Assembly (NCBI GenBank): GCA_031256435.1
Contig: JAIRQO010000039.1
Location: forward strand, 30,167 to 94,166
DNA length: 64,000 bases
Direction: 5' to 3'
DNA from: Cellulomonadaceae bacterium
Lineage (GTDB): Bacteria > Actinomycetota > Actinomycetes > Actinomycetales > Cellulomonadaceae
This document shows positions 10,240 to 48,457 of the stretch, one piece after another. Made by a program: the position numbers and the translations under genes. Position 1 is the stretch's first letter. Each line of letters starts with the position of its first letter. The notes beneath the pieces were generated by a model. The model was not told the origin of the DNA and ran no database searches. It saw only the letters and a program-made list of their open reading frames with translations.

Positions 10240-10449
10240 CCCGGTTGGGTGGTTGAGCCAGGCGCACCAGCGCCGACGGTCGAAACCCCCACCGGGCCCT
10301 TTGCCGTCCCCGGCCAACTCACCCGCAATTCCGAAGCACAACGGCGATTCCTGCGTGCATTAGTACATCCTTGCTCGGTTAGTGCCGCAGTCCATCGTCG
10401 AATATTGCACTGATCGACGAAACTTGCACTAACCCACCAGCCAGACACC
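10240..10449 (+). repeat. Long direct repeat copy 1 flanking the 10591-13413 gene
   Basis: Shares type A repeat, GGGCCCTTTGCCGTCCCCG, CCGCAATTCCGAAGCACAACGGCG..CCTGCGTGC and a 66-bp identical end (10384-10449) with 13465-13732. Confidence 0.85.
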
Positions 10450-13464: not shown

Positions 13465-13732
13465 CCCGGTTGGGCGGTTGAGTCAGGCGCACCAGCGCCG
13501 ACGGTCGAAACCCCCACCGGGCCCTTTGCCGTCCCCGCGATGCCCGCAACTCCGAAGCACAACGGCGATTCCTGCGCCCCACCAGCCCACAAACCAGCAA
13601 CCCGCCCGCAATTCCGAAGCACAACGGCGCTCCCTGCGTGCGGCAGTACATCCTTGCTCGGTTAGGGCCGCAGTCCATCGTCGAATATTGCACTGATCGA
13701 CGAAACTTGCACTAACCCACCAGCCAGACACC
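13465..13732 (+). repeat. Long direct repeat copy 2 flanking the 10591-13413 gene
   Basis: 66-bp identical terminal segment (13667-13732 = 10384-10449); includes an internal duplication of CCCGCAAYTCCGAAGCACAACGGCG. Confidence 0.85.
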
Positions 13733-22599: not shown

Positions 22600-24711
22600 C
22601 TAAATCCAACTCGGTAGCCACATGAGGCCCTGCCATTGGCTGAACGGGATGGGGATCGCGGACCAGATGGGGTAGAACATGGCCGATACCACCACAATCA
22701 GTGTCACCACTACTGCAATGGCTACGATGACCAAGCGGCGCGGCCAGCGAGGTGATGGCACTGTTGCCTGGACCGTGGTTTCGACCGACGGCAGGCCATG
22801 GCTGCCTGGCTCAACCACCCGGTAGGCGGGTTCCTCGCCGCCATGCCTGCCTGGCTCAACCACCCGGTAGGCGGCTTCCTCACCGCCATGCCTGCCCGGC
22901 TCAACCGCTGGATCGTCGTCGAATACTTCAAGGCCGAGTACCCCCACAAAGGTGAGGGTCAAGATGACCCACGGGGCGAATGCGATGGAGTAGAAGGTGA
23001 ACACGGTGCGGTGCATGTAGGCCATCCATGGCAGCCAACCCGCGATGATTCCGGAGAGCACGGCGAGGCCTCGCCAGTCGCGGCGCCAGATTCCGAGGAC
23101 GGCAACAAGGAGGATGCTGGCCGCGCCGAGCCACCACAGGATGGGGTTCCCCAGCGAGGTGATGGCTTGCGCGCATTGTTCCGGGCCGCAGGCTTCATGG
23201 TTGGTGACGCGTTCCCAGAAAAAGGACGTGGGGCGCCATTGGATGATCCAGCCCAGCGGGTTGGCCGCGTACGGGTGCTCGGCTTCCAACGAGGTATGGA
23301 AGTTCCACATGTCATGGTGATAGTGCAGGAAACTGCGCAGCGCCTCGGGGAGCCAGGTGATTCCTTGGCCCGGGTTGTCGGCCGCCCACTGCCGCCCGTA
23401 GGCACCGGGGGTGGCAAACCAACTCCACCAACTGCCCACGTACACGGCAACGGCGGTGGGAACCATGAACAGGAACGCGCGGACGCCATCCTTGGCGAGG
23501 CCGCCCAGGAACCATCGCTGGATGCCCGCGCGCCTGCGTGCCGTGACGTCCCACAGAACGGTCATCAATCCGAAGCCCGCCAGGAAATACAGTCCGGACC
23601 ATTTCACGCCGATAGCCAAGCCGAGTGACACCGCAGCGGCAAGGCGCCACGGCCGGAATCCGAGGCCCGGGCCGTACATCCACAGGGCGTTATGAAGGCT
23701 TGAGGCGGCGGGTTCTTGGCTCTCATGTCCGGCGGGGGTTTCGACCGACGCGCTTGTCAGCGCTGGCTCAACCACCCTGTCAGGGAGCGCTGGCTCAACC
23801 ACCCTGGCGTCGGCCAACCGGGCGGCTAATCGTCGCTGGGCATGGTCACGGTCAATGAGTAAACATCCAAAAGCCACCAGGGCAAAGAACATCAGGTACT
23901 GATCCAGCAGCCCGGTGCGCGAGTGAACAATGGCCGTCCCGTCCACCGCCATCAGTCCGCCTGCCACCAGTCCCATGGCCGTGGAGGAAAACAGCCGCCG
24001 CGCTATCCGTGCCATGAGGACGACGGCAAGGATGCCCACCACCGCGTTGGCAATCCGCCACGCAAAGGCATCCGTGGGGCCGCCGCCAAGGTGAATCCCC
24101 AGGCCAATCAGCCACTTGGCCACCTGAGGGTGGACCACAAAGGCAGGCTCAGAGATGTAGGAATACACGTCTCCGGACTCAAAGGCGGGGTTGGGATCCT
24201 CGGGCCATCGCGCCTCAAAGCCCAGGTTCCACAGCGTCCATCCGTCCTTGACGTAATAGGTTTCGTCGAACACCAGCTCATGGGGCTCCCCCAGCCTGAC
24301 CAGCCTGATAAGCGCTGCCACCACCGCCAGGAGTGCCACACCGATCCAACCGATCAGCCGATCATGGCGCTGCGACCCGAGCGCCAGTGCGCGGGCGGAG
24401 AAAAGGCGGAGGAGGAGTTGATCGTGGAGGGGTGGGGCTGGTTGGACTGGTAGGACGGGTGAGGCGGCGGCGGAGGTTTGGGCGACGGTGAAGGTTTGGG
24501 CTACGTCAGGGGCTGCGGCGGGGGCAGTGGCGAGGCTTGGTCCGGCAGGCGGTACGGTACCCGTGCTAGTCGGCGTCGGTGACTCGGTGCCCGCGCGAGG
24601 TGAAACCGTTGGCCCATTTCCTGCAGGGGGCAGCACGGCGGGTGTGGCGCCCGTGGGAGGCCAATTCATCTCCCCTGCCCATTGGCCGCCGCTATCCGTC
24701 ACAGGGGACAT
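22600..24711 (-). CDS. Dolichyl-phosphate-mannose-protein mannosyltransferase-like (PMT) glycosyltransferase
   Basis: RLGEPHELVFDETYYVKDGWTLW...; multi-TM; divergent from rsmI as commonly seen in actinobacteria. Contains in-frame repeat units. Confidence 0.88.
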   Translation of the reverse strand: MSPVTDSGGQWAGEMNWPPTGATPAVLPPAGNGPTVSPRAGTESPTPTSTGTVPPAGPSLATAPAAAPDVAQTFTVAQTSAAASPVLPVQPAPPLHDQLLLRLFSARALALGSQRHDRLIGWIGVALLAVVAALIRLVRLGEPHELVFDETYYVKDGWTLWNLGFEARWPEDPNPAFESGDVYSYISEPAFVVHPQVAKWLIGLGIHLGGGPTDAFAWRIANAVVGILAVVLMARIARRLFSSTAMGLVAGGLMAVDGTAIVHSRTGLLDQYLMFFALVAFGCLLIDRDHAQRRLAARLADARVVEPALPDRVVEPALTSASVETPAGHESQEPAASSLHNALWMYGPGLGFRPWRLAAAVSLGLAIGVKWSGLYFLAGFGLMTVLWDVTARRRAGIQRWFLGGLAKDGVRAFLFMVPTAVAVYVGSWWSWFATPGAYGRQWAADNPGQGITWLPEALRSFLHYHHDMWNFHTSLEAEHPYAANPLGWIIQWRPTSFFWERVTNHEACGPEQCAQAITSLGNPILWWLGAASILLVAVLGIWRRDWRGLAVLSGIIAGWLPWMAYMHRTVFTFYSIAFAPWVILTLTFVGVLGLEVFDDDPAVEPGRHGGEEAAYRVVEPGRHGGEEPAYRVVEPGSHGLPSVETTVQATVPSPRWPRRLVIVAIAVVVTLIVVVSAMFYPIWSAIPIPFSQWQGLMWLPSWI
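22777..22912 (-). repeat. Type A repeat unit and 45-bp tandem derivative inside the PMT gene
   Basis: GGTTTCGACCGACGGCAGGCCATGGCTGCCTGGCTCAACCACCCGG then repeated CCATGCCTGCCTGGCTCAACCACCCGGTAGGCGG; encodes (VVEPGRHGGEExAYR)n. Confidence 0.85.
23737..23800 (-). repeat. Second in-frame type A repeat unit inside the PMT gene
   Basis: GGTTTCGACCGACGCGCTTGTCAGCGCTGGCTCAACCACCCTGTCAGGGAGCGCTGGCTCAACCACCC; encodes RVVEPALPDRVVEPALTSASVETP. Confidence 0.8.
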
Positions 24712-36357: not shown

Positions 36358-39300
36358 ATGAAGAGCCGATTCTTGCAGTCAGCCACAGCACGAGTTACCG
36401 CTGCGTGCGTTGCGGCTCTGGCCCTCGTCATCGTCCCTGTGGCCATGCCCATCACGTCCTTGACGCCCGCGGCACAGGCGGCGGAGGTCAACGCGGACAA
36501 CCCGGTGATCTTTACCGTGCGCGGTGGCATTACGGCTGGCACGGATGCGGTCAACTACCAGATTGTGGTGGACGGGGTTTATGACCAGAGTTATCAGTCA
36601 TTCAACGTGATCTATCCTGATGAACTCACTATTGACACCTCGGCGGTCACCTCCGGAATCTGGACCATCTCCACCTCGGAAAACGGCGCCAACACCACCA
36701 CGTCTTTCATCATGAAGTCTGGCTCACGGACCGCTGCTCAACTCCAACAGGACATCCAGGCCATTTCCTTCTCCCTCACGAATGCCGGGGTGTTCCCGCC
36801 CGAGGGTTCCAAAGTCACCATCACCGCCTCCGAGGACAAAGTCACGGCGTTCATTGACGCAGGCGGCTACGTTCACTATTACGTTTTTGTACCTGGAACC
36901 ACGTCCACGTATTGGTTCACCGCCTACAACGCCGCGCACGCCCAGACCATGCAGGACCCCCGCTACCCCACCGATCCCACCAAGGTACTCCACGGCTACT
37001 TGGCTACCATCACCAGCCAAGCGGAACAACGCAAGGTCTACAATGACATTGCCACCCTCTGTGGCTGGCTTGCTGGAACCCGTGCGTTGTTTGGAACCGC
37101 ACCCACGGGCTATGCATCACTGGCTGGACAACGTATTCAGGACCAAGGCTCCCAACAGCCAGGCTCGGCAAATACCGCAGATATTCCCACCACCTCAATT
37201 CCAGCCGCCGGGGCCACCACCGTCAACTATGACATTGCGGTGGCCACCGCAACAACTTGGTACTGGGCGGACGGCCCTGAGGCGTGGACGGTGTATGACG
37301 CGGACACTGCCACGTACACCTACTACCCCATGGGGATGACCACCGTTCCTGATGACGTGTGGGTCATTCAGGACGCCAACGGCCAGAACACCTACCTTGG
37401 TAGTTTCTCGGACCAACCCACGGTGGACAACCTTCCCGCGGGGGCCAGCGTCATTCCGGACCCCAACCGCGGCCAACCCGTGGGCAACCTGGTGTTCTAC
37501 AACAAGATCACCAACGCCACCGCTCCCGCTGGCAAGGCTGGCGATCCCACCGGCAACGGGGCTCCTGCTGGGGTGTACGCCAACTGGAACAACCCGTACG
37601 GCGTCAATGTGGATGGTGTTGCCGGTACCGGCGCGGAGCCGAATAACAGCTCCGGCGAGTACGTCACCCAGTTTGCCTACACTGGCAAGGACCTCTGGAA
37701 TGACTTCTCCTATAACCCCAGCAGCACCGTGAAGGGTTACTACGTGGAGTTTGGTGGCTACGTAGGCGATCCGCTGGCCTCTGACCTGGTTGGTTCGGAA
37801 ATCACCACGTCCTCTGAAGTGCAGATGGTGATGCCGATTCATGTGGAGTATCGGTCCACGGCCACTAATGCTGACGGCACGCGCCGGTTGATGACGGGGA
37901 TTGGTACGGATTCGGATCACTTCTGGCCGTACCAGGAACACCTTCCCTACGTGGCGTATATCACCAAGGAGTTGGACCCCACCAAGCCCACCTACGGCAC
38001 CGTGTACTTCACCCTGCCGCCGGGATATTCCGCGTATGGATACGAGTTTGTGGGGACGCAAGAGGATAAGGATAAGTTGACCGTTGATGCCGATGGCAAC
38101 GTGGCGGGTTTCCATTCCCTGTATAACCAGACCATCCGCTACTTGTTCCAGCCGGACACGTACACAGTCACCTTTAACCCCAACTGGGACGGCGCAAATT
38201 CGTCGAACGTGACGCCGGCGTCCAAAACGGTTCTCTATGACACGCCGTATGGGGACCTCGCCACGGCAACGCGCAAGGGCTACACCCAAACGGGGTGGTA
38301 CGCCTGTGACAGCGCACCCACGGACTTCTCTGTGGATGGATGCACGGAAGTAACCGCGGATTCCCTGGTGCCGCTGGCCGGTGACTCGCACGCCTTGACG
38401 CTCTATGCCGGCTGGGAGGTCAACGATTCGTATACCGTCACGTATGACGTCACCACAGTGTCCGACGATTTAGGGTGCGGACCTGCCACGGATATTCCGG
38501 ATAAAACCCAGGTGGCCTGGACGGATATCAACCTCACGCCGGGGTCTGGGTTGACGGCCCCCAGCCTTGCTGACCCGTCAGACAGCCTGACCGCAACTCA
38601 AACGCTCACGTCAGACACCATTCCCACGCGGGATAACTGTGTGTTCACGGGGTGGGATGTGTCCGAGAACGGGACCGCTCAGGGAGTCACCTCCACGGAT
38701 GCCTACGGGGATGTGGCCGCGAGCGATACTGAACCGGGAATCACGCTGGAGGCGCAGTGGCGCCGCGCGCAATACCTCTCCGTGATTTACCACCTGAATG
38801 GCGGGACCACGCAGGACCCACTGCCGGATATCAGCCAGCCTGCGGAGATTGGTGATTTTGCTGTCAACCTCCCCACTCCCAGCCGAGATGGATACACCTT
38901 CTCTGGGTGGCGTGTGGCGGACAACGGGACACACACGGTGACCTCGGATGACGAGGCGTTCCTTCCTGGGCAAACCACGTATGCGAGCATCGCCGCTAAG
39001 GATGCTGACGGGAATGTGATTGCCACCTATGTGGTGATTGAAGCCGTGTGGACGGCCACGGACTACACCGTGAATTATGACGGCCAGGCCGCTGATGATT
39101 CCACCCTCAGCCCCACGAGTTTTGCCGCAGAGACGGTGACCTGGGATGAGGCTGGCGTGGTTCCCCCTGCGGAAGGCAACCCCGAGCGTGACGGGTACTT
39201 CTTCATGGGGTGGAACACCGAGAAAGACGGCACGGGAATCCTGGCCGGAAGCAGTTCCACCTATGACGCCCTAGCCCAGGGTGATCCCACGGTCACCTCG

Positions 39301-42300
39301 GTCACGCTGTATGCCCAATGGCAACCGGAACCCACCTACTTTGTGCAGTATGACCTGGCTGGCGGCTCCTACACTGACCCTTCCAGCACTGACCCGTCCG
39401 ATGCGCAGAACACCCTGACCACCATAGCCAAGAAGGACGGCGTTCACGCCAGTGATGCTGACCTGATTCCTGATGTGGACCTCACCCGCGAGGGCTATAC
39501 CTTTGTGGGCTGGAGTGTGGCCTATAACGGCTCCAAAGTGGGGGTGACCAGCACGGACACCTTTGGCTCACTGGCCGCTAACCTCAACGCCGGATACATT
39601 GTGCTCCAAGCGCAATACCAACCCAAGAGTGACTACACCGTGAAGTACAACCTTCAAGGGGGAACGCTTGACGGTGCCACCACAGTTCCTGACCTGGCAG
39701 GTGTGGTGTGGTGGACACAGGAAAGCATTCTCCCCCGCCTCACCCCGGTGCGTTCTGGCTACACGTTCCTGGGTTGGAACACGGCGGCGGACGGCACCGG
39801 CCGCGCAGTGACCACATCGGACAGTTTTGCCAGTGCTGCCGGTCAAGTGGAGCCTGCGGACAACACGTTGACCCTGTACGCCCAGTGGGCAGGGGAAGGC
39901 GTCTACACGGTCCAATACAACGTGGGGATAGGCACCAGTCCCATTGCGAGTGCGCAATACACGGCTACCCCGGATGACATTCAGAACCAAACGGTGGACC
40001 TTCCGGTTCCCCAGGCTCCGGCGGGATACACGTTCAGTTACTGGACTGTGTCCAACAACGGATATGACCAATCGAGTTCTGCTGCCGTAAAGGACGGCAC
40101 CACGTACAGCGCCCTGGCGTACCCCGTGACAGATACCAGCACACCGCCGCAGGTGGTGGACTGGCGTCACACCATCACGCTGACGGCACAGTACGCGGAG
40201 TCCGCAGATTACATCGTTGCCTATGACGGTCAGTGCGCTGACTCTCCGGACATCAGCCCCACCACGGGCGTTGCTTGGACGGACTCCGGTTTTACCCCGG
40301 CCGTCACCTGCCCCGGCAAGAACCTGGTGGGGTGGACGCTCACTCCGGACGGAACGGGCTCCTACGTGCTTCCCACCACGCAGTTCCGGGACCTGGCCCA
40401 GAACACTGAACCCGCAGACGGGACCGTCACTCTCTACGCCCAGTGGTCTGACGCCTCCTTTGTGGTGCAGTATGACCTGGGTGGCATTGCCGCCCCGGAC
40501 GGCTGGCAACCGCAGCGCACCGTGGGCTTCAATGACACCAACCTCATCCCCACGGAAACTCTGGACCGCCTGGGCTACACGCTGACCGGCTGGAAAGTGT
40601 CAGCCAACGGGGCAACAGCCGCACTGGTCACAGATAGCGATTCCTTCGGCACCCTGGCTGCGCCAAACGCACCGTTTATTCGCCTGGAAGCACAATGGGG
40701 TCCCAAGAGTTACGTGGTCAACTATGACCTGAACGATGCGCGCGGCTACACCCGCGCCCACCCGCAAAGCATTGATTCCACCCCGGCCGTGGGCGAGGAC
40801 GGCGCGCTGCGGTGGAACTCCGTGATCCCGTTTGACACGGGTCAGGACACCCCGTGGCGGAACGGGTTCACCTTTGACGGGTGGACGGTATCCATGGTGG
40901 GAGACACCGCTGTGGACGGTGACGGGGCCGTGGTCATCCCGGGTGTCACCAAGTACTCAGACGTGGGCTCCTACACGGATGCCCAGGGTGATGCCATGGA
41001 TGCGGATTCCATCACCATCCAAGCGCAATGGACGGAAAACCCTCCCGTGCCGATTGCCTATTCGGTGATGTGTCTGACCAACAAGGCCAACCCGGTGTAC
41101 CAACCGCTGGCTCACACGCCGTGCGCCACCGTGCAACTCAACAGCACCACCAAGCCGGACCCCAACGTCAACCCGGACCAGGCCACGGACATTGATCAGG
41201 ATGTACCCGATGATGACGTGTCCACCGTGGTGGGTGAAGTTCTCCCCGCGTCCGGCGTTGCCGGTGGTGCGATGGTTGCCCGTAAGCCCGGTCACAAATT
41301 CCTGGGGTGGTACAAGGCAGACCGCGTAGCGCAACTCCTAGCAACCGAAACCCCAGGCGTGTTTGATCCCGATCAGTTGCCGGAAATCCTCAGTGACACC
41401 GATGATCTGGTGTCCGATCAACCCACGTACGTTCCCTCGCGCGTCCCGGTGGATGATGGAGAGGTGTATGAACAGGGTGCCTACGTGGCTCTGTTCCAAG
41501 AACTGCCTGATGTGACCTTGACCTATCAGGCGGTCACGCTGGCCACCGAAGGCACGTGCAACTCCCTGACGTGCCCTGACACCGTGGCTAATGGTGGGTT
41601 TGTCAAGATTGCCTCCGACGATGATGCGGGCATCACCGAGAGCGAATCCGTGGCACCCGCCACGGGTACAGCCGTGGGTAGTGACGCGTTGGTGAAGAAG
41701 GGGTACAAGTTCTGGGGATGGAGCACAGACACGGTTCCGGACACCCGGGCTGATGCAGCCCGCCTGTCAGGCACGGGTCCTGCTGATGACACCACGGCTG
41801 TGTCCACGTTCCTGCCTGCCCGAAACCCGGACGGAACTTACGGAACGCTCGTCACCGCGAGTGACCAGACCGATGAACTGGACCCTGTCACGTACTACGC
41901 CATTTTCTCTGAAGAGGACAACGTGGATCTGTCCTACCGGGCCGTGACACTCTCACCCTCGGGCACCGTGGAATGCGATGGTGTGGACACGGACTCCTGC
42001 GCCGTATCTGGCGGAACCATTGATCACGAAAGTGATTCCGTACCCCCAGCCTCCGGCACGGCCGAGCAGAACACCGCTACGGCGGCATCAGGCTTTGTGT
42101 TCCTGGGATGGTTCAACCGCATCGACGATGGCAGTTACCTGGACCAAACCCCGGTATCCACTGATACCGCCTGGACCCCGCCGCGTGTGTCCGATCTCAA
42201 CGTTGACGGCAACTATGTGGCAGTATTCCAACGTCAGGCCAGCCTCCCCACCGTCGTCGTCACGCAGATTGACAACGTGGCCGTCACCACCTTGGGTGAT

Positions 42301-45300
42301 GTAGCGCTGCGTCCGGATTCGGGTGAGGATGACGTCCCCCTGATCCTGTCAGACAACGCATTTGCCGGCGAGGCATGGCCAGGCACCTTCACGGTGGTTG
42401 TTGACGGCAAGGACACGGGAGTGAAGGTGACGCTTGCCGCACCGTCGGGCGATTCCGACGCGCAGATGGTGACCACGGTAGTGAATTACTACACCGTCAC
42501 GATGTACCGCGATGTAGCAGAGGACCCACTGGTGGCCATCAGCGCGCAGATCTACCTGGCGGGTTCGTCGCACACTATTGCCGATCCCCAAGGCCCCACG
42601 GCGGACCAGTTCTTTGAGGGCTGGACGGACGATCCCACGGCCACGGACCCCAACCCGCAGTACAACCACGGGGACACCATCCAGAACATCACCGCGCCGG
42701 TCACCCTGTACGGCGTGTGGACCACCACCGTGCAGTATTCGGTGACGTATGACGTGAATGGTGCGCAGGCAGGGTCCGTGGAAGATCCCAACTCCACGTA
42801 TGACAAGGATTCCCTGGCGCCGGTTCTTGATGCTCCAGTGAGTGCTGTCACGCCCCCGGACGGCATGACCTTTGCCGGATGGGCCACGAGTTCCGATGCC
42901 ACCACGGCCACGCTGCAACCCGGAACGTCATTCAAGGTCAGCGCTGACACGGTGCTGTACGCCGTGTGGGCACCGCTGGCCGATGGCGTGACACCGTTTG
43001 TAGTGGATCCTGATGCTCCCATGGTGGAGATCACCTACAAGGCCAATGGTGGACGCAACGCTCCCGTGGATCCCTCGGAGTATGAGCAGGGCGAGAGCCT
43101 GATTGTGCTCTCCGGAGACGGCATGGTGGCTCCTGCCGGGATGCACTTTGCTGGGTGGGCGTCCTCGCCGGATGCGTCCAAGGCTGACCCGGGATTGGCG
43201 CCAGGCACCGTGCTGACCGTGGATCAAGCGCTCACCGTATACGCGGTGTGGGTGGAGAACGATCCCGTGGACGTGGGCTACGTCATTGAATGCCGCAACG
43301 GTGATGGCTCTGACAGGCCGGACCCGTCTACCCCGTGCAGCGCGCTGACGTTGCGCAGCGGTGGGAGTGATGGTGGTGGTGACGGCTCTGCTGGCTCTGG
43401 TGATAGCAGCAGCGGCAGCACGAGCGACGACTGGAAGGTCTCGGAAACGGTGGCTCCCCTCACCGGAAAACTCAGCGGCGTGGACCTGAAGGACATCCCC
43501 GGGTACGCCTTCAAGGGGTGGTGGATTTACCCGCAGGACAACATAGAAGGCCTCCCGCCTCTGTCCACGGACGAGACATGGACTCCCCCGCGCAATGCTG
43601 ACGGCACGTATGCTGCCGTGACCTACGTGGCCGTATTCCAAGAAATCCCTGACGCCACGGTGACCTACACCCTGGAATGCCGTAATGCAGATGATTCGGA
43701 CCGCCCGGATCACGGCACTCCCTGTAGCGATTTGACGGTGAACTCCAGTGGAAAGCAGGACCCCTGGACAGTGAGTGAGAGCACTGCCCCCGCCACGGGG
43801 AAGCTTTCAGGTGTGACGCTCGCTGAAATCCCCGGCTACACGTTCCTGGGATGGTGGCAATACCCACAGGATGACCTCCGCACCGAAGCCCCGCTGTCCA
43901 CGGATCTCAACTGGACACCAGGACGTGGCACGGACGGTACGTACACCGATATCACGTACGTAGCGGTTTTCCGAGCGGCTCAGGCACCCACCCTCACCCA
44001 GACGATCGACGATTCTGCGGCGATGTCCCTGGGAGACCGAGTGACCCTGACCATCAACGCGGACCTCCCGTCCCTGCCCGCAGATCAATCGTCCGATGCC
44101 ACGGTGCTGCCCGCAACGCTGTACCGGATAGAGGAAACTCTGCCGGCGCAGTTGGGACTAGTAGATGCGCCTCCGGTGGTCACGCTCGCTTCTGATGGCA
44201 AGGGCTCTGGTGGCAGTGGCTCTGCTGACAGTGGCTCCGGTGACAGCGGCTCGCCGCTGGACCCTGAGGATTATCAGGCCACGGTGGACCCGGAGACCAA
44301 CACGCTCGTGGTCACTCTCACCAAGCAGGGCTTGGCCCAGGCGGCCGAGTGGGCGGCTTCCGGTCAACACCTAAGTGTGGTGTTCCAGGCCACGGTAGTG
44401 CTGACCGGGGACAACACACCAGATCCCAAGGATATTGACGGCTTGATTGCCAGTTCCGCTCAGTTGTTTGTGAACGATCCAAGCACTCCGGCAGCCACGA
44501 GTGAAGCCGATACGCACTTTGGCGGTGTGTCCGTGTACAAGTTCGGCACGGACCTCACCGAGAAGAGTGCAGCCTCCGCTGCCACGGCCAAGGCCTTCAA
44601 CGGCACCACCTTTGAGGTGTTCTCCAAGGCGGATTATGACGCTCACGGATCGCAGGCAACCCCGCTGAAGATTGCCTTGCCTCCGTCCGTGCGTGCCTCG
44701 GTTCAGGCCACTACGGGCAAACCCGCACCGGTGGCTATCAGCGAGTTTGTGGCTGGTCCAGCAGGAATTAACCCGGACCGTAACAGGCCGGATAAGGGCA
44801 ACAACCTCACGGGCTTCAACGCTGACGGCAACGCGGTGATCTGTGGGTTGAAGAACGGCGAGTACTACTTGGTGGAAACCAAAGCGCCGAAGGGGTACAC
44901 GCTCGATCCCGAGCCGATTCCGTTCACCCTCACCCAGGATTTGGACCATGACAGCACCTGGAAAGACACGGCCACATCCGTGGCGGGAGGCGTGAACGCC
45001 GTGATCCGGTACAACGCTCATCACCCCGACGAAATGATTGTGGTGGACCCGGTGGCTAAGGACAAGACTCCTGGCTACGCCGTGGCTCCTGGCGGAGGCA
45101 AGGGCGCCGGTGCTACTGGTGGCCAAGGTTCTGGTGGTGCTGGTGGCCAGGGTTCTGGTGGGCAGGGTTCACAGGGCACCAAATCCCACGGCAAGTCCTC
45201 CGACTCTCCGAAAGACACCTCCTCCACGGCTAAGTCTGCGCATAAGAACGGAGCCTCGAAGTCCGGCTCGCATTCCGGCTCCAAGGCTGCCAAGGGCGCG

Positions 45301-45831
45301 GGTTCTGGGCAGGGTTCTGGGCACGCCGCCAGCGCCGCCAAGGTGGCAAGCATTGCCCAGGCCTCGTGGCCGCTCCTCAACCTCCTGCTGGCGATTGTGG
45401 CCGCCCTGGCTACCCTCGTAACAGGACGGTGGGCGGTGCGTCGTCGCGATGATGACGATGATGATGAGGCCGCCTGTGCTGATCGCCCAGTGGATGCCGA
45501 TGCTTTGGGCGTTGATCGCGACTCCGTTGCACTCGCCTTGGAGGATCAGACCGAGGGTTCCACGCCTGACGAGTCCACGGCTGAGGATTCCACGCGTGAC
45601 AATGCCACGCAGTCTCGCCGAGGTCGCCTCCGCTGGCTCGCACTCTCCGCGTTCCTTGCCGTGGCAGGAATCATCCTGTTCCTGGTGACCGAGGACCTCC
45701 ACGGCCTGATGGTCTGGTGGGATCGGTGGACCATTGTTCACGTTGTCCTGACCGCCGGAGCGGTGGCTGTGCTGGTTCACGTCCTTCGCGCCAGACGAGA
45801 TTCTGCGAGGCGCTCCGCACCCGCAGAATGA
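36358..45831 (+). CDS. Giant surface protein (3157 aa): C-type-lectin-like N-terminal region, many InlB (Listeria-Bacteroides) repeats, SpaA-like domain, 3-TM C-terminus
   Basis: HGYLATITSQAEQRKVY...GWLAGTR...WYWADGPEAW; repeated YTVxYDxxG...GYTFxGWxxxxDGTG...TLYAQW; GLKNGEYYLVETKAPKGY; C-terminal hydrophobic segments. Confidence 0.85.
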   Translation: MKSRFLQSATARVTAACVAALALVIVPVAMPITSLTPAAQAAEVNADNPVIFTVRGGITAGTDAVNYQIVVDGVYDQSYQSFNVIYPDELTIDTSAVTSGIWTISTSENGANTTTSFIMKSGSRTAAQLQQDIQAISFSLTNAGVFPPEGSKVTITASEDKVTAFIDAGGYVHYYVFVPGTTSTYWFTAYNAAHAQTMQDPRYPTDPTKVLHGYLATITSQAEQRKVYNDIATLCGWLAGTRALFGTAPTGYASLAGQRIQDQGSQQPGSANTADIPTTSIPAAGATTVNYDIAVATATTWYWADGPEAWTVYDADTATYTYYPMGMTTVPDDVWVIQDANGQNTYLGSFSDQPTVDNLPAGASVIPDPNRGQPVGNLVFYNKITNATAPAGKAGDPTGNGAPAGVYANWNNPYGVNVDGVAGTGAEPNNSSGEYVTQFAYTGKDLWNDFSYNPSSTVKGYYVEFGGYVGDPLASDLVGSEITTSSEVQMVMPIHVEYRSTATNADGTRRLMTGIGTDSDHFWPYQEHLPYVAYITKELDPTKPTYGTVYFTLPPGYSAYGYEFVGTQEDKDKLTVDADGNVAGFHSLYNQTIRYLFQPDTYTVTFNPNWDGANSSNVTPASKTVLYDTPYGDLATATRKGYTQTGWYACDSAPTDFSVDGCTEVTADSLVPLAGDSHALTLYAGWEVNDSYTVTYDVTTVSDDLGCGPATDIPDKTQVAWTDINLTPGSGLTAPSLADPSDSLTATQTLTSDTIPTRDNCVFTGWDVSENGTAQGVTSTDAYGDVAASDTEPGITLEAQWRRAQYLSVIYHLNGGTTQDPLPDISQPAEIGDFAVNLPTPSRDGYTFSGWRVADNGTHTVTSDDEAFLPGQTTYASIAAKDADGNVIATYVVIEAVWTATDYTVNYDGQAADDSTLSPTSFAAETVTWDEAGVVPPAEGNPERDGYFFMGWNTEKDGTGILAGSSSTYDALAQGDPTVTSVTLYAQWQPEPTYFVQYDLAGGSYTDPSSTDPSDAQNTLTTIAKKDGVHASDADLIPDVDLTREGYTFVGWSVAYNGSKVGVTSTDTFGSLAANLNAGYIVLQAQYQPKSDYTVKYNLQGGTLDGATTVPDLAGVVWWTQESILPRLTPVRSGYTFLGWNTAADGTGRAVTTSDSFASAAGQVEPADNTLTLYAQWAGEGVYTVQYNVGIGTSPIASAQYTATPDDIQNQTVDLPVPQAPAGYTFSYWTVSNNGYDQSSSAAVKDGTTYSALAYPVTDTSTPPQVVDWRHTITLTAQYAESADYIVAYDGQCADSPDISPTTGVAWTDSGFTPAVTCPGKNLVGWTLTPDGTGSYVLPTTQFRDLAQNTEPADGTVTLYAQWSDASFVVQYDLGGIAAPDGWQPQRTVGFNDTNLIPTETLDRLGYTLTGWKVSANGATAALVTDSDSFGTLAAPNAPFIRLEAQWGPKSYVVNYDLNDARGYTRAHPQSIDSTPAVGEDGALRWNSVIPFDTGQDTPWRNGFTFDGWTVSMVGDTAVDGDGAVVIPGVTKYSDVGSYTDAQGDAMDADSITIQAQWTENPPVPIAYSVMCLTNKANPVYQPLAHTPCATVQLNSTTKPDPNVNPDQATDIDQDVPDDDVSTVVGEVLPASGVAGGAMVARKPGHKFLGWYKADRVAQLLATETPGVFDPDQLPEILSDTDDLVSDQPTYVPSRVPVDDGEVYEQGAYVALFQELPDVTLTYQAVTLATEGTCNSLTCPDTVANGGFVKIASDDDAGITESESVAPATGTAVGSDALVKKGYKFWGWSTDTVPDTRADAARLSGTGPADDTTAVSTFLPARNPDGTYGTLVTASDQTDELDPVTYYAIFSEEDNVDLSYRAVTLSPSGTVECDGVDTDSCAVSGGTIDHESDSVPPASGTAEQNTATAASGFVFLGWFNRIDDGSYLDQTPVSTDTAWTPPRVSDLNVDGNYVAVFQRQASLPTVVVTQIDNVAVTTLGDVALRPDSGEDDVPLILSDNAFAGEAWPGTFTVVVDGKDTGVKVTLAAPSGDSDAQMVTTVVNYYTVTMYRDVAEDPLVAISAQIYLAGSSHTIADPQGPTADQFFEGWTDDPTATDPNPQYNHGDTIQNITAPVTLYGVWTTTVQYSVTYDVNGAQAGSVEDPNSTYDKDSLAPVLDAPVSAVTPPDGMTFAGWATSSDATTATLQPGTSFKVSADTVLYAVWAPLADGVTPFVVDPDAPMVEITYKANGGRNAPVDPSEYEQGESLIVLSGDGMVAPAGMHFAGWASSPDASKADPGLAPGTVLTVDQALTVYAVWVENDPVDVGYVIECRNGDGSDRPDPSTPCSALTLRSGGSDGGGDGSAGSGDSSSGSTSDDWKVSETVAPLTGKLSGVDLKDIPGYAFKGWWIYPQDNIEGLPPLSTDETWTPPRNADGTYAAVTYVAVFQEIPDATVTYTLECRNADDSDRPDHGTPCSDLTVNSSGKQDPWTVSESTAPATGKLSGVTLAEIPGYTFLGWWQYPQDDLRTEAPLSTDLNWTPGRGTDGTYTDITYVAVFRAAQAPTLTQTIDDSAAMSLGDRVTLTINADLPSLPADQSSDATVLPATLYRIEETLPAQLGLVDAPPVVTLASDGKGSGGSGSADSGSGDSGSPLDPEDYQATVDPETNTLVVTLTKQGLAQAAEWAASGQHLSVVFQATVVLTGDNTPDPKDIDGLIASSAQLFVNDPSTPAATSEADTHFGGVSVYKFGTDLTEKSAASAATAKAFNGTTFEVFSKADYDAHGSQATPLKIALPPSVRASVQATTGKPAPVAISEFVAGPAGINPDRNRPDKGNNLTGFNADGNAVICGLKNGEYYLVETKAPKGYTLDPEPIPFTLTQDLDHDSTWKDTATSVAGGVNAVIRYNAHHPDEMIVVDPVAKDKTPGYAVAPGGGKGAGATGGQGSGGAGGQGSGGQGSQGTKSHGKSSDSPKDTSSTAKSAHKNGASKSGSHSGSKAAKGAGSGQGSGHAASAAKVASIAQASWPLLNLLLAIVAALATLVTGRWAVRRRDDDDDDEAACADRPVDADALGVDRDSVALALEDQTEGSTPDESTAEDSTRDNATQSRRGRLRWLALSAFLAVAGIILFLVTEDLHGLMVWWDRWTIVHVVLTAGAVAVLVHVLRARRDSARRSAPAE

Positions 45832-45941
45832 CGGGACAAAGGCGCTCCACACCCGCAGAATGACGGGTTGTGTTGAACTGACGAACTTCTTACCTCTCGT
45901 CATTCTGCGGGCCCTCTGGGCCTCGCAGAATCTCGGGGGAA
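45796..45941. repeat. Type B palindromic repeats overlapping the 3' end of the giant gene and the following spacer
   Basis: GAGATTCTGCGAGGCGCTCCGCACCCGCAGAATGACGGG, a partial copy, and inverted GTCATTCTGCGGGCCCTCTGGGCCTCGCAGAATCTC. Confidence 0.88.
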
Positions 45942-46011: not shown

Positions 46012-46722
46012 CTAGTTGTCCTCGAGGAGGCGTTCCTTGGCGCTGGGGTCCACGGGGATGCCGGGGCCCATCGAGGTGGCAAAGGTGGCCTTGATCAGGT
46101 AGCGACCCTTGGAGGACGTGGGCTTCAAACGCATGACCTCATCCAACGCGGCGGCGTAGTTCTCCACGAGTTGTTCCTCGGTGAAGGAGGCCTTGCCAAT
46201 GATGAAGTTCAGGTTGGCGTGCTTGTCAACGCGGAACTCAATCTTTCCGCCCTTGATGTCAGCAACGGCCTTGGCCACATCCATGGTGACGGTGCCCGTT
46301 TTGGGGTTCGGCATCAAACCACGCGGACCGAGCACGCGGCCCAAACGGCCCACCTTGCCCATGAGGTCCGGGGTTGCTACGGCGGCGTCAAAGTCCACAA
46401 ACCCGCCCTGGACCTTGGCAATCAACTCGTCGCCGCCCACGTAGTCAGCGCCGGCTTCCTTGGCCTCTTCAGCCTTGGCAGCGTTAGCAAACACCAACAC
46501 GGTGGCCGTTTTACCGGTTCCGTGCGGCAGGTTCACCGTACCACGGACCATCTGGTCCGCCTTACGGGGGTCAACGCCCAAGCGGAACGCCACCTCAACG
46601 GTGGAGTCATACTTGGTGATAGCGGTCTCCTTGGCCAGGCGCACAGCCTGGAGCGGGGAGTAGAGGGCGGTGCGGTCAATCTTGGCCGCTGCGGCGCGAT
46701 ACGCCTTGGAGTGTTGTGCCAT
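46012..46722 (-). CDS. rplA: 50S ribosomal protein L1
   Basis: [34 protein letters not shown]...[14 protein letters not shown]. Confidence 0.98.
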
Positions 46723-46839: not shown

Positions 46840-47013
46840 GGTTTCGACCGTCGGCGCTGCCGCACCTGGCTCAACCGCCCGATTCCCGTGGTTTCGAGAC
46901 GCCCTGCGGGCTCCTCAACCGACGAGACCGCTCACAGTTTATCTGTGAGATGAAGCGGGGGTGCTGAGTATCGAGAGGTTTCGACCGTCGGCGCTGCCGC
47001 GCCTGGCTCAACC
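46840..47013. repeat. Type A repeats and a related variant in the rplK-rplA spacer
   Basis: 46840-46876 and 46977-47013 (GGTTTCGACCGTCGGCGCTGCCGC[A/G]CCTGGCTCAACC) plus 46890-46925 (GGTTTCGAGACGCCCTGCGGGCTCCTCAACCGACGA). Confidence 0.88.
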
Positions 47014-47044: not shown

Positions 47045-47476
47045 TCACAGATCGGTGGTGATTCCCATGGATCGGGCAGTCCCTGCGACGATCTTCATGG
47101 CGGCATCGATGTCATTGGCGTTGAGATCTTCCATCTTGACCTGGGCGATGTCACGCACCTGGTCAACAGTGAGGTTCGCTACCTTGACGGTGTGGGGCGT
47201 TCCGGAACCCTTGGCTACCCCGGCGGCCTTCTTGATGAGCTCGGCGGCGGGCGGGGTTTTGGTGATAAACGTGAACGAGCGGTCCTCGTACACGGTGATC
47301 TCTACCGGGATGACGTTGCCACGCTGGGATTCTGTGGCGGCGTTGTACGCCTTGCAGAACTCCATGATGTTGACGCCGTGCTGACCCAATGCGGGGCCAA
47401 TGGGCGGTGCCGGGTTAGCGGCTCCAGCGTTGATCTGGAGCTTGATTAAGCCAGCTACCTTCTTCTTGGGGGGCAT
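47045..47476 (-). CDS. rplK: 50S ribosomal protein L11
   Basis: [42 protein letters not shown]. Confidence 0.98.
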
Positions 47477-47563: not shown

Positions 47564-48457
47564 CTATATCTTGGAAACCTGAGTGAATGCTAGTTCAACA
47601 GGGGTCTCGCGGTCAAAGATGCGTACCAGCACCTTCAACCTTTGCGTCACCATGTCAATCTCAGACACCGAGGCGGGCAGGCCCTCAAACGGTCCGTCGT
47701 TCACCGTGACGGACTCGCCTTCGGCAAAGTCAACCTCCAACGGCTTACCGGAGGCAGCAGCGGCCTTGGCTTCCGCCTTCTTCTCCTCGGCCACGGCGGC
47801 TTCCACCATGACGGGGGCGAGCATGGAGTACACCTCGTCAATGCTCAGCGGGATGGGCGCGTGTGCGTTACCCACAAAGCCGGTGACGCCGGGGGTGTGA
47901 CGCACCGCGTTCCATACGGCGTTGCGTTCCTCGGGCTCCATCCAGTCACCCATGTCCAGGCGAACCAGCACGTATCCGGGGATCCGCACGCGGCGCACCT
48001 GCTTCTTCACGGAGTTCTTGATTTCCGTGACCTCTTCCATGGGTACCTGAATCTCATGGATGTACTCCTCCATGTTCAGGGTCTGGATGCGAGTTTCCAG
48101 GTTCTGCTTAACGCGGTTCTCATAACCAGCGTAGGAGTGGATGACGTACCAATCGCCCTCCTGCGCCTCCAGTTCGGCGCGGAATTCTGCGGCGGCGTCC
48201 GAGGTGGGCTCGTCTGCCGGGGCTTCCTCGGTGGGTTCCTCGGTGGTTTCGACCGTCGGCGCATCCGCGCCTGGCTCAACCGCCCCAAGGTCCTCGGTGG
48301 GTTCCTCGGTGGTTTCGACCGTCGGCGCATCCGCGCCTGGCTCAACCACCCGAAGGGCCGCGGCAGCGTCATCCGCGCCTGGCTCAACCGACCGAAGGAC
48401 CTCGGCCGCAACATCGTCGTCGGAAATATCAACGGCGGGCAACACGTTATCGGACAC
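47564..48457 (-). CDS. nusG: Transcription termination/antitermination protein NusG with repeat-rich acidic N-terminal extension
   Basis: [22 protein letters not shown]...VTGFVGN...[17 protein letters not shown] (KOW); N-terminus with repeated VEPGAD([12 protein letters not shown]). Confidence 0.96.
48245..48390 (-). repeat. In-frame type A repeat units inside nusG
   Basis: GGTTTCGACCGTCGGCGCATCCGCGCCTGGCTCAACC at 48245-48281 and 48311-48347, partial at 48370-48390; near-match to the spacer copies at 46977-47013. Confidence 0.92.

Follow-up and report, generated by a model that had tools for sequence, protein, structure and literature searches.

A dispersed palindromic element lies in frame in nusG and other conserved genes of a cellulomonad actinobacterium

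Elements at the nusG locus

The window (the whole stretch of DNA analyzed, 64,000 nt) contains an rplA-rplK-nusG-secE cluster in which both nusG and the spacer between rplA (46012-46722) and rplK (47045-47476) carry copies of one short palindrome. Further copies lie elsewhere in the window. The features are as follows.

47564..48457, minus strand: nusG, 297 residues, GTG start (Pfam PF02357, E=2.3e-23; NCBIfam TIGR00922 above cut-off)
48195..48326, plus strand: 66-bp direct tandem duplication carrying the nusG element (repeat family D3, spacing 66)
48245..48281, plus strand (antisense to nusG and in frame in it): full palindromic element, pattern match with 0 mismatches, encoding 12 residues
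48311..48347, plus strand: second full element in nusG, same frame, pattern match with 0 mismatches
~48370..48389, plus strand: half element in nusG, right arm and half of the inner stem (repeat family D1, copy 48353-48396)
46840..46876, plus strand: element copy in the rplA-rplK spacer, pattern match
46977..47013, plus strand: element copy in the rplA-rplK spacer, pattern match
46890..46920, plus strand: sister palindrome GGTTTCGAGACG..CTCCTCAACC, 9 copies in the genome (C17:77056-77086)
22777..22816, plus strand: element in frame in a protein O-mannosyltransferase gene (pattern match, reading frame and profile hit)
23737..23773, plus strand: second in-frame element in the same protein O-mannosyltransferase gene (22600-24339, minus strand)
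10251..10287, minus strand: element copy outside called genes, pattern match
13476..13512, minus strand: element copy with one arm base changed, pattern match

Both spacer copies between rplA and rplK sit within an 83-nt direct duplication. Ahead of the cluster, at 36358-45831, is a repeat-rich surface-type protein of 3157 residues. At the end of this large surface-protein gene (45796-45935) lies a copy of a second dispersed repeat, ATTCTGCGGGT / CGCAGAATGACGGG, which has 41-nt inverted arms and often adjoins the palindromes (copy flanks in L097, L068, L110 and L112).

The GTG start of nusG is preceded by an AAGGA-like ribosome site, and the NGN domain begins at residue 102. Two full elements and one half element lie in frame between this domain and the only plausible start codons, which fall 94-99 and 63 residues before the core; the interval from the two full elements to the NGN domain has no start codon. 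A sequence-only reading of this DNA had reported a dispersed palindrome in frame in nusG, a 13-residue peptide encoded by it and the same unit in the rplK-rplA spacer. These claims were borne out: the open reading frame holds two exact copies and a half copy, the peptide has the sequence given, and both spacer copies match.

The further claim, that the NusG extension is built from this unit, holds only in part. The unit does lie in the tail, but the tail is older, because an acidic low-complexity N-terminal tail is present in all relatives compared. The alignment of nusG for presence or absence that had been proposed gave congeners that have the acidic tail without the element; the tail is ~69-85 residues long in element-free congeners with a usable start and 99 residues in the window's species. 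An extension wholly derived from the element is thereby ruled out, and the element was added to an old, pre-existing tail. The sequence-only reading had named an old extension without matching intergenic repeats as the finding that would count against it. The extension proved old, but matching intergenic repeats are abundant and, in the sample, unique to the species. Both full copies belong to the 66-bp tandem duplication, which indicates that the element entered the tail and was then duplicated together with its surroundings.

Copy number and structure of the element

Copies were searched with the pattern GGTTTCGACC-N(16-22)-TGGCTCAACC; the whole-genome scan used a spacing of N(5-30), and the arms are thus fixed by the pattern. 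Seven copies were found in the window and 124 in the genome, a draft of 2,497,631 bases in 88 contigs that is 93% complete. Neither the pattern read backwards (genome-wide) nor dinucleotide-shuffled windows gave any match. That the similarity is chance, reflects the low complexity of acidic tails or stems from draft assembly could be argued from the 88 contigs and the low-complexity NusG tails, but this explanation is contradicted by the control counts, by inserts inside well-folded enzymes and by the same phenomenon in a congener whose chromosome is a single 3.74-Mb contig (see below), and its probability is practically negligible. Note that contig C26 closes with three element copies 61 bp apart (L072 6236-6394). 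Since the assembly breaks in tandem copies there, the genome probably contains more copies than were counted.

The 37-bp unit GGTTTCGACCGTCGGCGCATCCGCGCCTGGCTCAACC is the exact sequence of both full nusG copies (0 mismatches). In the stretches fetched around listed copies, 103 strict copies measured 37 bp (n=56), 38 bp (n=36) or 36, 40 or 42 bp (remainder). One of these is a nusG copy seen twice, so 102 of the 124 copies were classified and about 23 others fell outside the set. The invariant arms GGTTTCGACC / TGGCTCAACC are enclosed by outer GG(T/G)...(A/G)CC(C/G)G, and the flanks form a further weak inverted repeat, (C/G)GG(G/T) upstream and (A/G)CC(C/G)G downstream. From the flank profile the element is ~46 bp long. 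Of the features of a MITE (terminal inverted repeats with a target-site duplication), inverted arms are present, and the flank profile has no evident direct repeat.

In the outer arms GGTT pairs with AACC, followed by a TC/TC mismatch and then a G-C pair; the TC/TC mismatch recurs within the inner stem of most 38-mers. The inner stem of the 37-mers (5 bp) is free to vary in sequence while pairing is retained: pairs 14-27, 15-26, 16-25, 17-24 and 18-23 are intact in 47, 46, 45, 47 and 44 of 48 distinct sequences (229/240 cells), with compensatory changes such as C-G (n=26) and G-C (n=19) at pair 15-26. Over all scored pairs, 517 cells were paired, against a mean of 444.5 and a maximum of 462 in shuffles (above 1000/1000). 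The element is thus palindromic as well as dispersed. Sister palindromes with identical GGTTTCG and CTCAACC ends occur elsewhere in the same genome.

Copies inside protein genes

Genes were called with a simple codon-usage caller, so that calls are approximate; 77% of the fetched DNA was called coding, and most host genes were confirmed by profile or structure hits. Of the 102 strict copies, 28 fell in called genes. Spacers held the others (co-directional 34, convergent 21, divergent 5), except for 14 that lay at the ends of stretches. The scan for units inside coding sequences that had been suggested thus gave 28/102 copies in about 22 genes, a scale above that first estimated. The low in-gene share, in DNA that is 77% coding, suggests that in-gene copies are purged.

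Hosts named by profile hits include nusG, atpD, rplE (two copies), truB (two), purT, ileS, cydD, cydC, sufU, rsgA, a nifS-type cysteine desulfurase (two), the actinobacterial sucB, scpA, maltokinase, the 2-oxoacid:ferredoxin oxidoreductase alpha subunit, a metal ABC permease, protein O-mannosyltransferase (two) and a type III restriction endonuclease. Some of these hits score under the cut-off that NCBI itself sets for the family in question, and the narrow names are therefore provisional.

Reading frames are strongly biased. One of the six element frames always contains TGA, which leaves five open frames, and 19 of the 28 in-gene copies are read in a single one of them, (V)VEP......TVET or its 38-mer equivalent (P ~3e-7). 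Counting each gene-frame combination once gives 15/24 (P ~3e-5).

Comparison with solved homologues placed the element in extra sequence: 40 aa at the element site in TruB versus 3 in 1sgv, 67 in PurT versus 7 in 1kj8, 70 in IleRS versus 15 in 8c8u, 47 in SufU versus 8 in 9dcl, and 92 in the NifS-type cysteine desulfurase versus 2 in 4isy. In AtpD the element is in the N-terminal tail, before residue 44, and in RsgA it is in the C-terminal tail. Elements in the hosts compared thus fall in tails or in loops that measure 2-15 residues in the solved homologues. Tolerance is suggested by these positions and by the preference for frames whose peptides contain little Trp, Phe or Arg, and the added peptides would be nearly neutral. 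Inserts of up to 92 aa are longer than one element, so other repeats or tandem growth must contribute. Because conserved sequence resumes on both sides of the internal inserts, the enzymes could not be made without translating them, and translation in vivo is probable.

TruB (L077 2420-3742) has an additional 60-residue insert of GHPAG(A/S)VST-type repeats at residues 137-203. Parts of it weakly match three other open reading frames of the same genome, and it may be another coding repeat.

Congeners and Xylanimonas cellulosilytica

The exact element pattern had 0 matches in 296 other sampled genomes of the order and 0 in 10 other genomes of the genus. In orthologue comparisons the PurT and NifS sites are contiguous in congeners and the TruB sites much shorter; the tested inserts are absent there. 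One congener (G002) has VEPVETP repeats in the same TruB loop, and another (G003) has a different in-frame insert in PurT, RKVSERSEELCGVET (L153), possibly derived from another palindrome family. These two inserts extend the behavior beyond the window's species.

A short form, GGTTTCGAC-N2-GCTCAACC, prevails in the family, with 554 copies in G010, 195 in G002, 57 in G134 and 0-2 in several others. It measures ~25 bp and has the same flanks, GGT...ACCGG, as the window's element, on which ground the two are treated as homologous. Looser ends, GGTTTCGA...CTCAACC, occur in several other genera, each with its own inner part (e.g. G084, G112, G134 and G210). In G112, which belongs to a different family of the order, palindromes that share these outer ends have a nested TTCG..CTCA inner loop, GGTTTCGACGCGG..TTCGTTCCTC..CCGGCTCAACC. 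We take G010 to be Xylanimonas cellulosilytica, and the window's DNA to derive from a different species within that genus in the GTDB sense.

These counts bear on whether the palindromes are kept for a role in DNA or RNA (as sites for gyrase or a nucleoid protein, or as mRNA 3' stabilizers), with in-gene copies a by-product. Such a role would agree with the conserved stem pairing and its compensatory changes and with spacer copies that shun divergent promoter regions and prefer gene 3' ends. The distribution is patchy, however: the window's form has 124 copies in one species and 0 in 10 congeners, the other form 554 in one congener and 0-2 in others, and essential conserved sites would not be expected to be lost between sister species. 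We therefore regard functional sites as unlikely.

X. cellulosilytica provides a parallel case. Twenty 20-kb stretches of its single contig were sampled, eight picked for listed copies and twelve picked blind, and 102 short units were found on both strands: 33 in called genes and 66 in spacers (30 co-directional, 35 convergent and 1 divergent). Nearly all in-gene units (32/33) encode VVEPVETT, VVSTGSTT or a peptide close to one of these. In HemB, HGHCGVL and VDND flank the insert, and nothing is added at this point in the E. coli enzyme, porphobilinogen synthase; we take this segment to lie beside the metal site and the lid of the active site. From their sequences, further hosts resemble glycine dehydrogenase, L-aspartate oxidase, prolyl oligopeptidase and ABC transporters. 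The hemA gene holds five tandem units 36 bp apart.

Tandem growth of this kind, like that of the 66-bp unit in nusG, would be expected if a coding repeat had been born in acidic tails like the one in NusG and gene conversion had then spread it, with spacer copies secondary. Most copies, though, are outside genes, single, in both orientations and with many different inner stems, and what all copies have in common is pairing, not a peptide. A coding origin is accordingly very improbable.

Selection of the added peptides for a function, such as that of a linker or an acidic interaction tail, is another way to read the strong bias to the VEP..VET and VVSTGSTT frames, the repeated use in several conserved enzymes and the tandem growth. 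The same bias is also expected from avoidance of stops and of Trp-, Phe- or Arg-rich peptides, and with unrelated hosts and sites and congeners that lack the inserts, tolerance fits better than need. We consider such domestication quite unlikely.

Comparison with known palindromes

The REPIN/RAYT systems, reportedly treated by Bertels and Rainey in 2011, share with the window's element short non-autonomous palindromes at high copy number within one species. Unlike them, the element has no conserved GTAG/GTGG tag: T precedes GGTT in only 34/101 copies, and no flanking base makes a fixed unpaired tag. A Y1 (RAYT-type, PF01797) transposase was found in 0/4 element-carrying genomes tested, the window's own being 93% complete, while control genomes were positive. 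With no PF01797 match in these four genomes, mobilization by a RAYT was rejected, and no transposase candidate for the element was found.

Rickettsia palindromic elements (RPE; Ogata et al. 2000, 2002) are dispersed in spacers and in frame within unrelated conserved genes (PMC10969869, PMC3733652), as is the window's element; in both cases one genome holds several sister families, and truB is a host. RPE-1 is ~100-150 bp long, in contrast to ~46 bp and ~25 bp for the present elements, and the RPE hosts are AT-rich obligate intracellular Rickettsia, whereas X. cellulosilytica is a cultured GC-rich actinobacterium. The RPE resemblance noted from sequence alone stands for behavior; membership in the Rickettsia RPE families is unsupported, and the element is set beside RPE by description, as an analogue that may or may not share descent.

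GTAG- and CGTC-tagged intragenic REPs (PMC3733652) are likewise short palindromes (20-40 bp) that usually lie between genes, downstream of them, and in some cases within genes including truB and tRNA synthetases, with species-specific families and, for the CGTC type, no transposase. The window's element differs in its invariant long arms, variable paired inner stem, strong frame bias and lack of a conserved unpaired tag; where CGTC REPs have an 8-9-bp stem and a terminal unpaired CGTC, it has an inner stem of 5-6 bp and any of T, A, G and C at position 12. Actinobacteria are absent from the phyla named in the excerpt of that paper. Di Nocera et al. 2013 describe REPs within the truB gene of several species and mention RPE-1 in that of R. 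conorii (PMC3733652), and it is striking that truB, a known palindrome host, recurs here. Coding palindromes in housekeeping genes also occur in Wolbachia (WPE) and Methanocaldococcus jannaschii (cited in PMC2996958); these belong to different lineages and are likened by description, not sequence.

The element thus lies both in spacers and in frame in unrelated genes, as RPE, WPE and intragenic REPs do, and its insert is missing from the PurT, NifS and TruB orthologues of close relatives. It is without the tags, length and transposase link that define the named families. Searches of open-licence papers found neither a description of these actinobacterial elements nor a paper with the peptides VEPVET or VSTGSTT.

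Origin and significance

Spread over contigs, both orientations, preference for spacers, species specificity and shared structure together fit a non-autonomous element moved by a trans-acting agent. We conclude that these palindromes are very probably a non-autonomous REP-like family, mainly intergenic and tolerated in genes where they encode a small flexible peptide. The family would belong to a wider actinobacterial superfamily, GGTTTCGA...CTCAACC, and would have multiplied, probably as a mobile element, after the species of its genus split. Some trans-acting agent would spread the element and selection would then filter its copies, retaining in-gene copies only where 12-15 residues are added in a tail or loop with no frameshift or stop, and leaving mainly the frame VEP...TVET. 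In nusG, entry into the acidic tail would have preceded duplication with the surrounding 66 bp.

Carriage of the element by phages or plasmids is almost nil. Each of two patterns matched one contig among 2.9 million viral contigs, and among plasmids only an Arthrobacter replicon matched. There, short unit matches lie in an annotated Gfo/Idh/MocA oxidoreductase gene (NZ_CP012477.1 381502-381569, Arthrobacter sp. ERGS1:01), which suggests that in-gene copies occur in Micrococcaceae too.

More speculatively, a non-Y1 mobilization system might spread GGTTTCG-CTCAACC palindromes in actinobacteria, with an inner stem particular to each species, continually adding frame-compatible peptides to essential enzymes; actinobacteria would then hold more palindrome-derived protein segments than Rickettsia. 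We offer this as a tentative possibility.

Protein-coding palindromes have so far been described mainly in Rickettsia, Wolbachia and a few others. Here, actinobacterial elements of this kind encode flexible stretches in proteins including NusG. In Rickettsia, near-neutral insertion can be attributed to weak selection in obligate intracellular bacteria, an explanation that is weakened if a cultured, GC-rich actinobacterium shows the same behavior to a similar or greater extent. Such a bacterium is a tractable organism in which to ask whether selfish DNA gives enzymes new protein segments.
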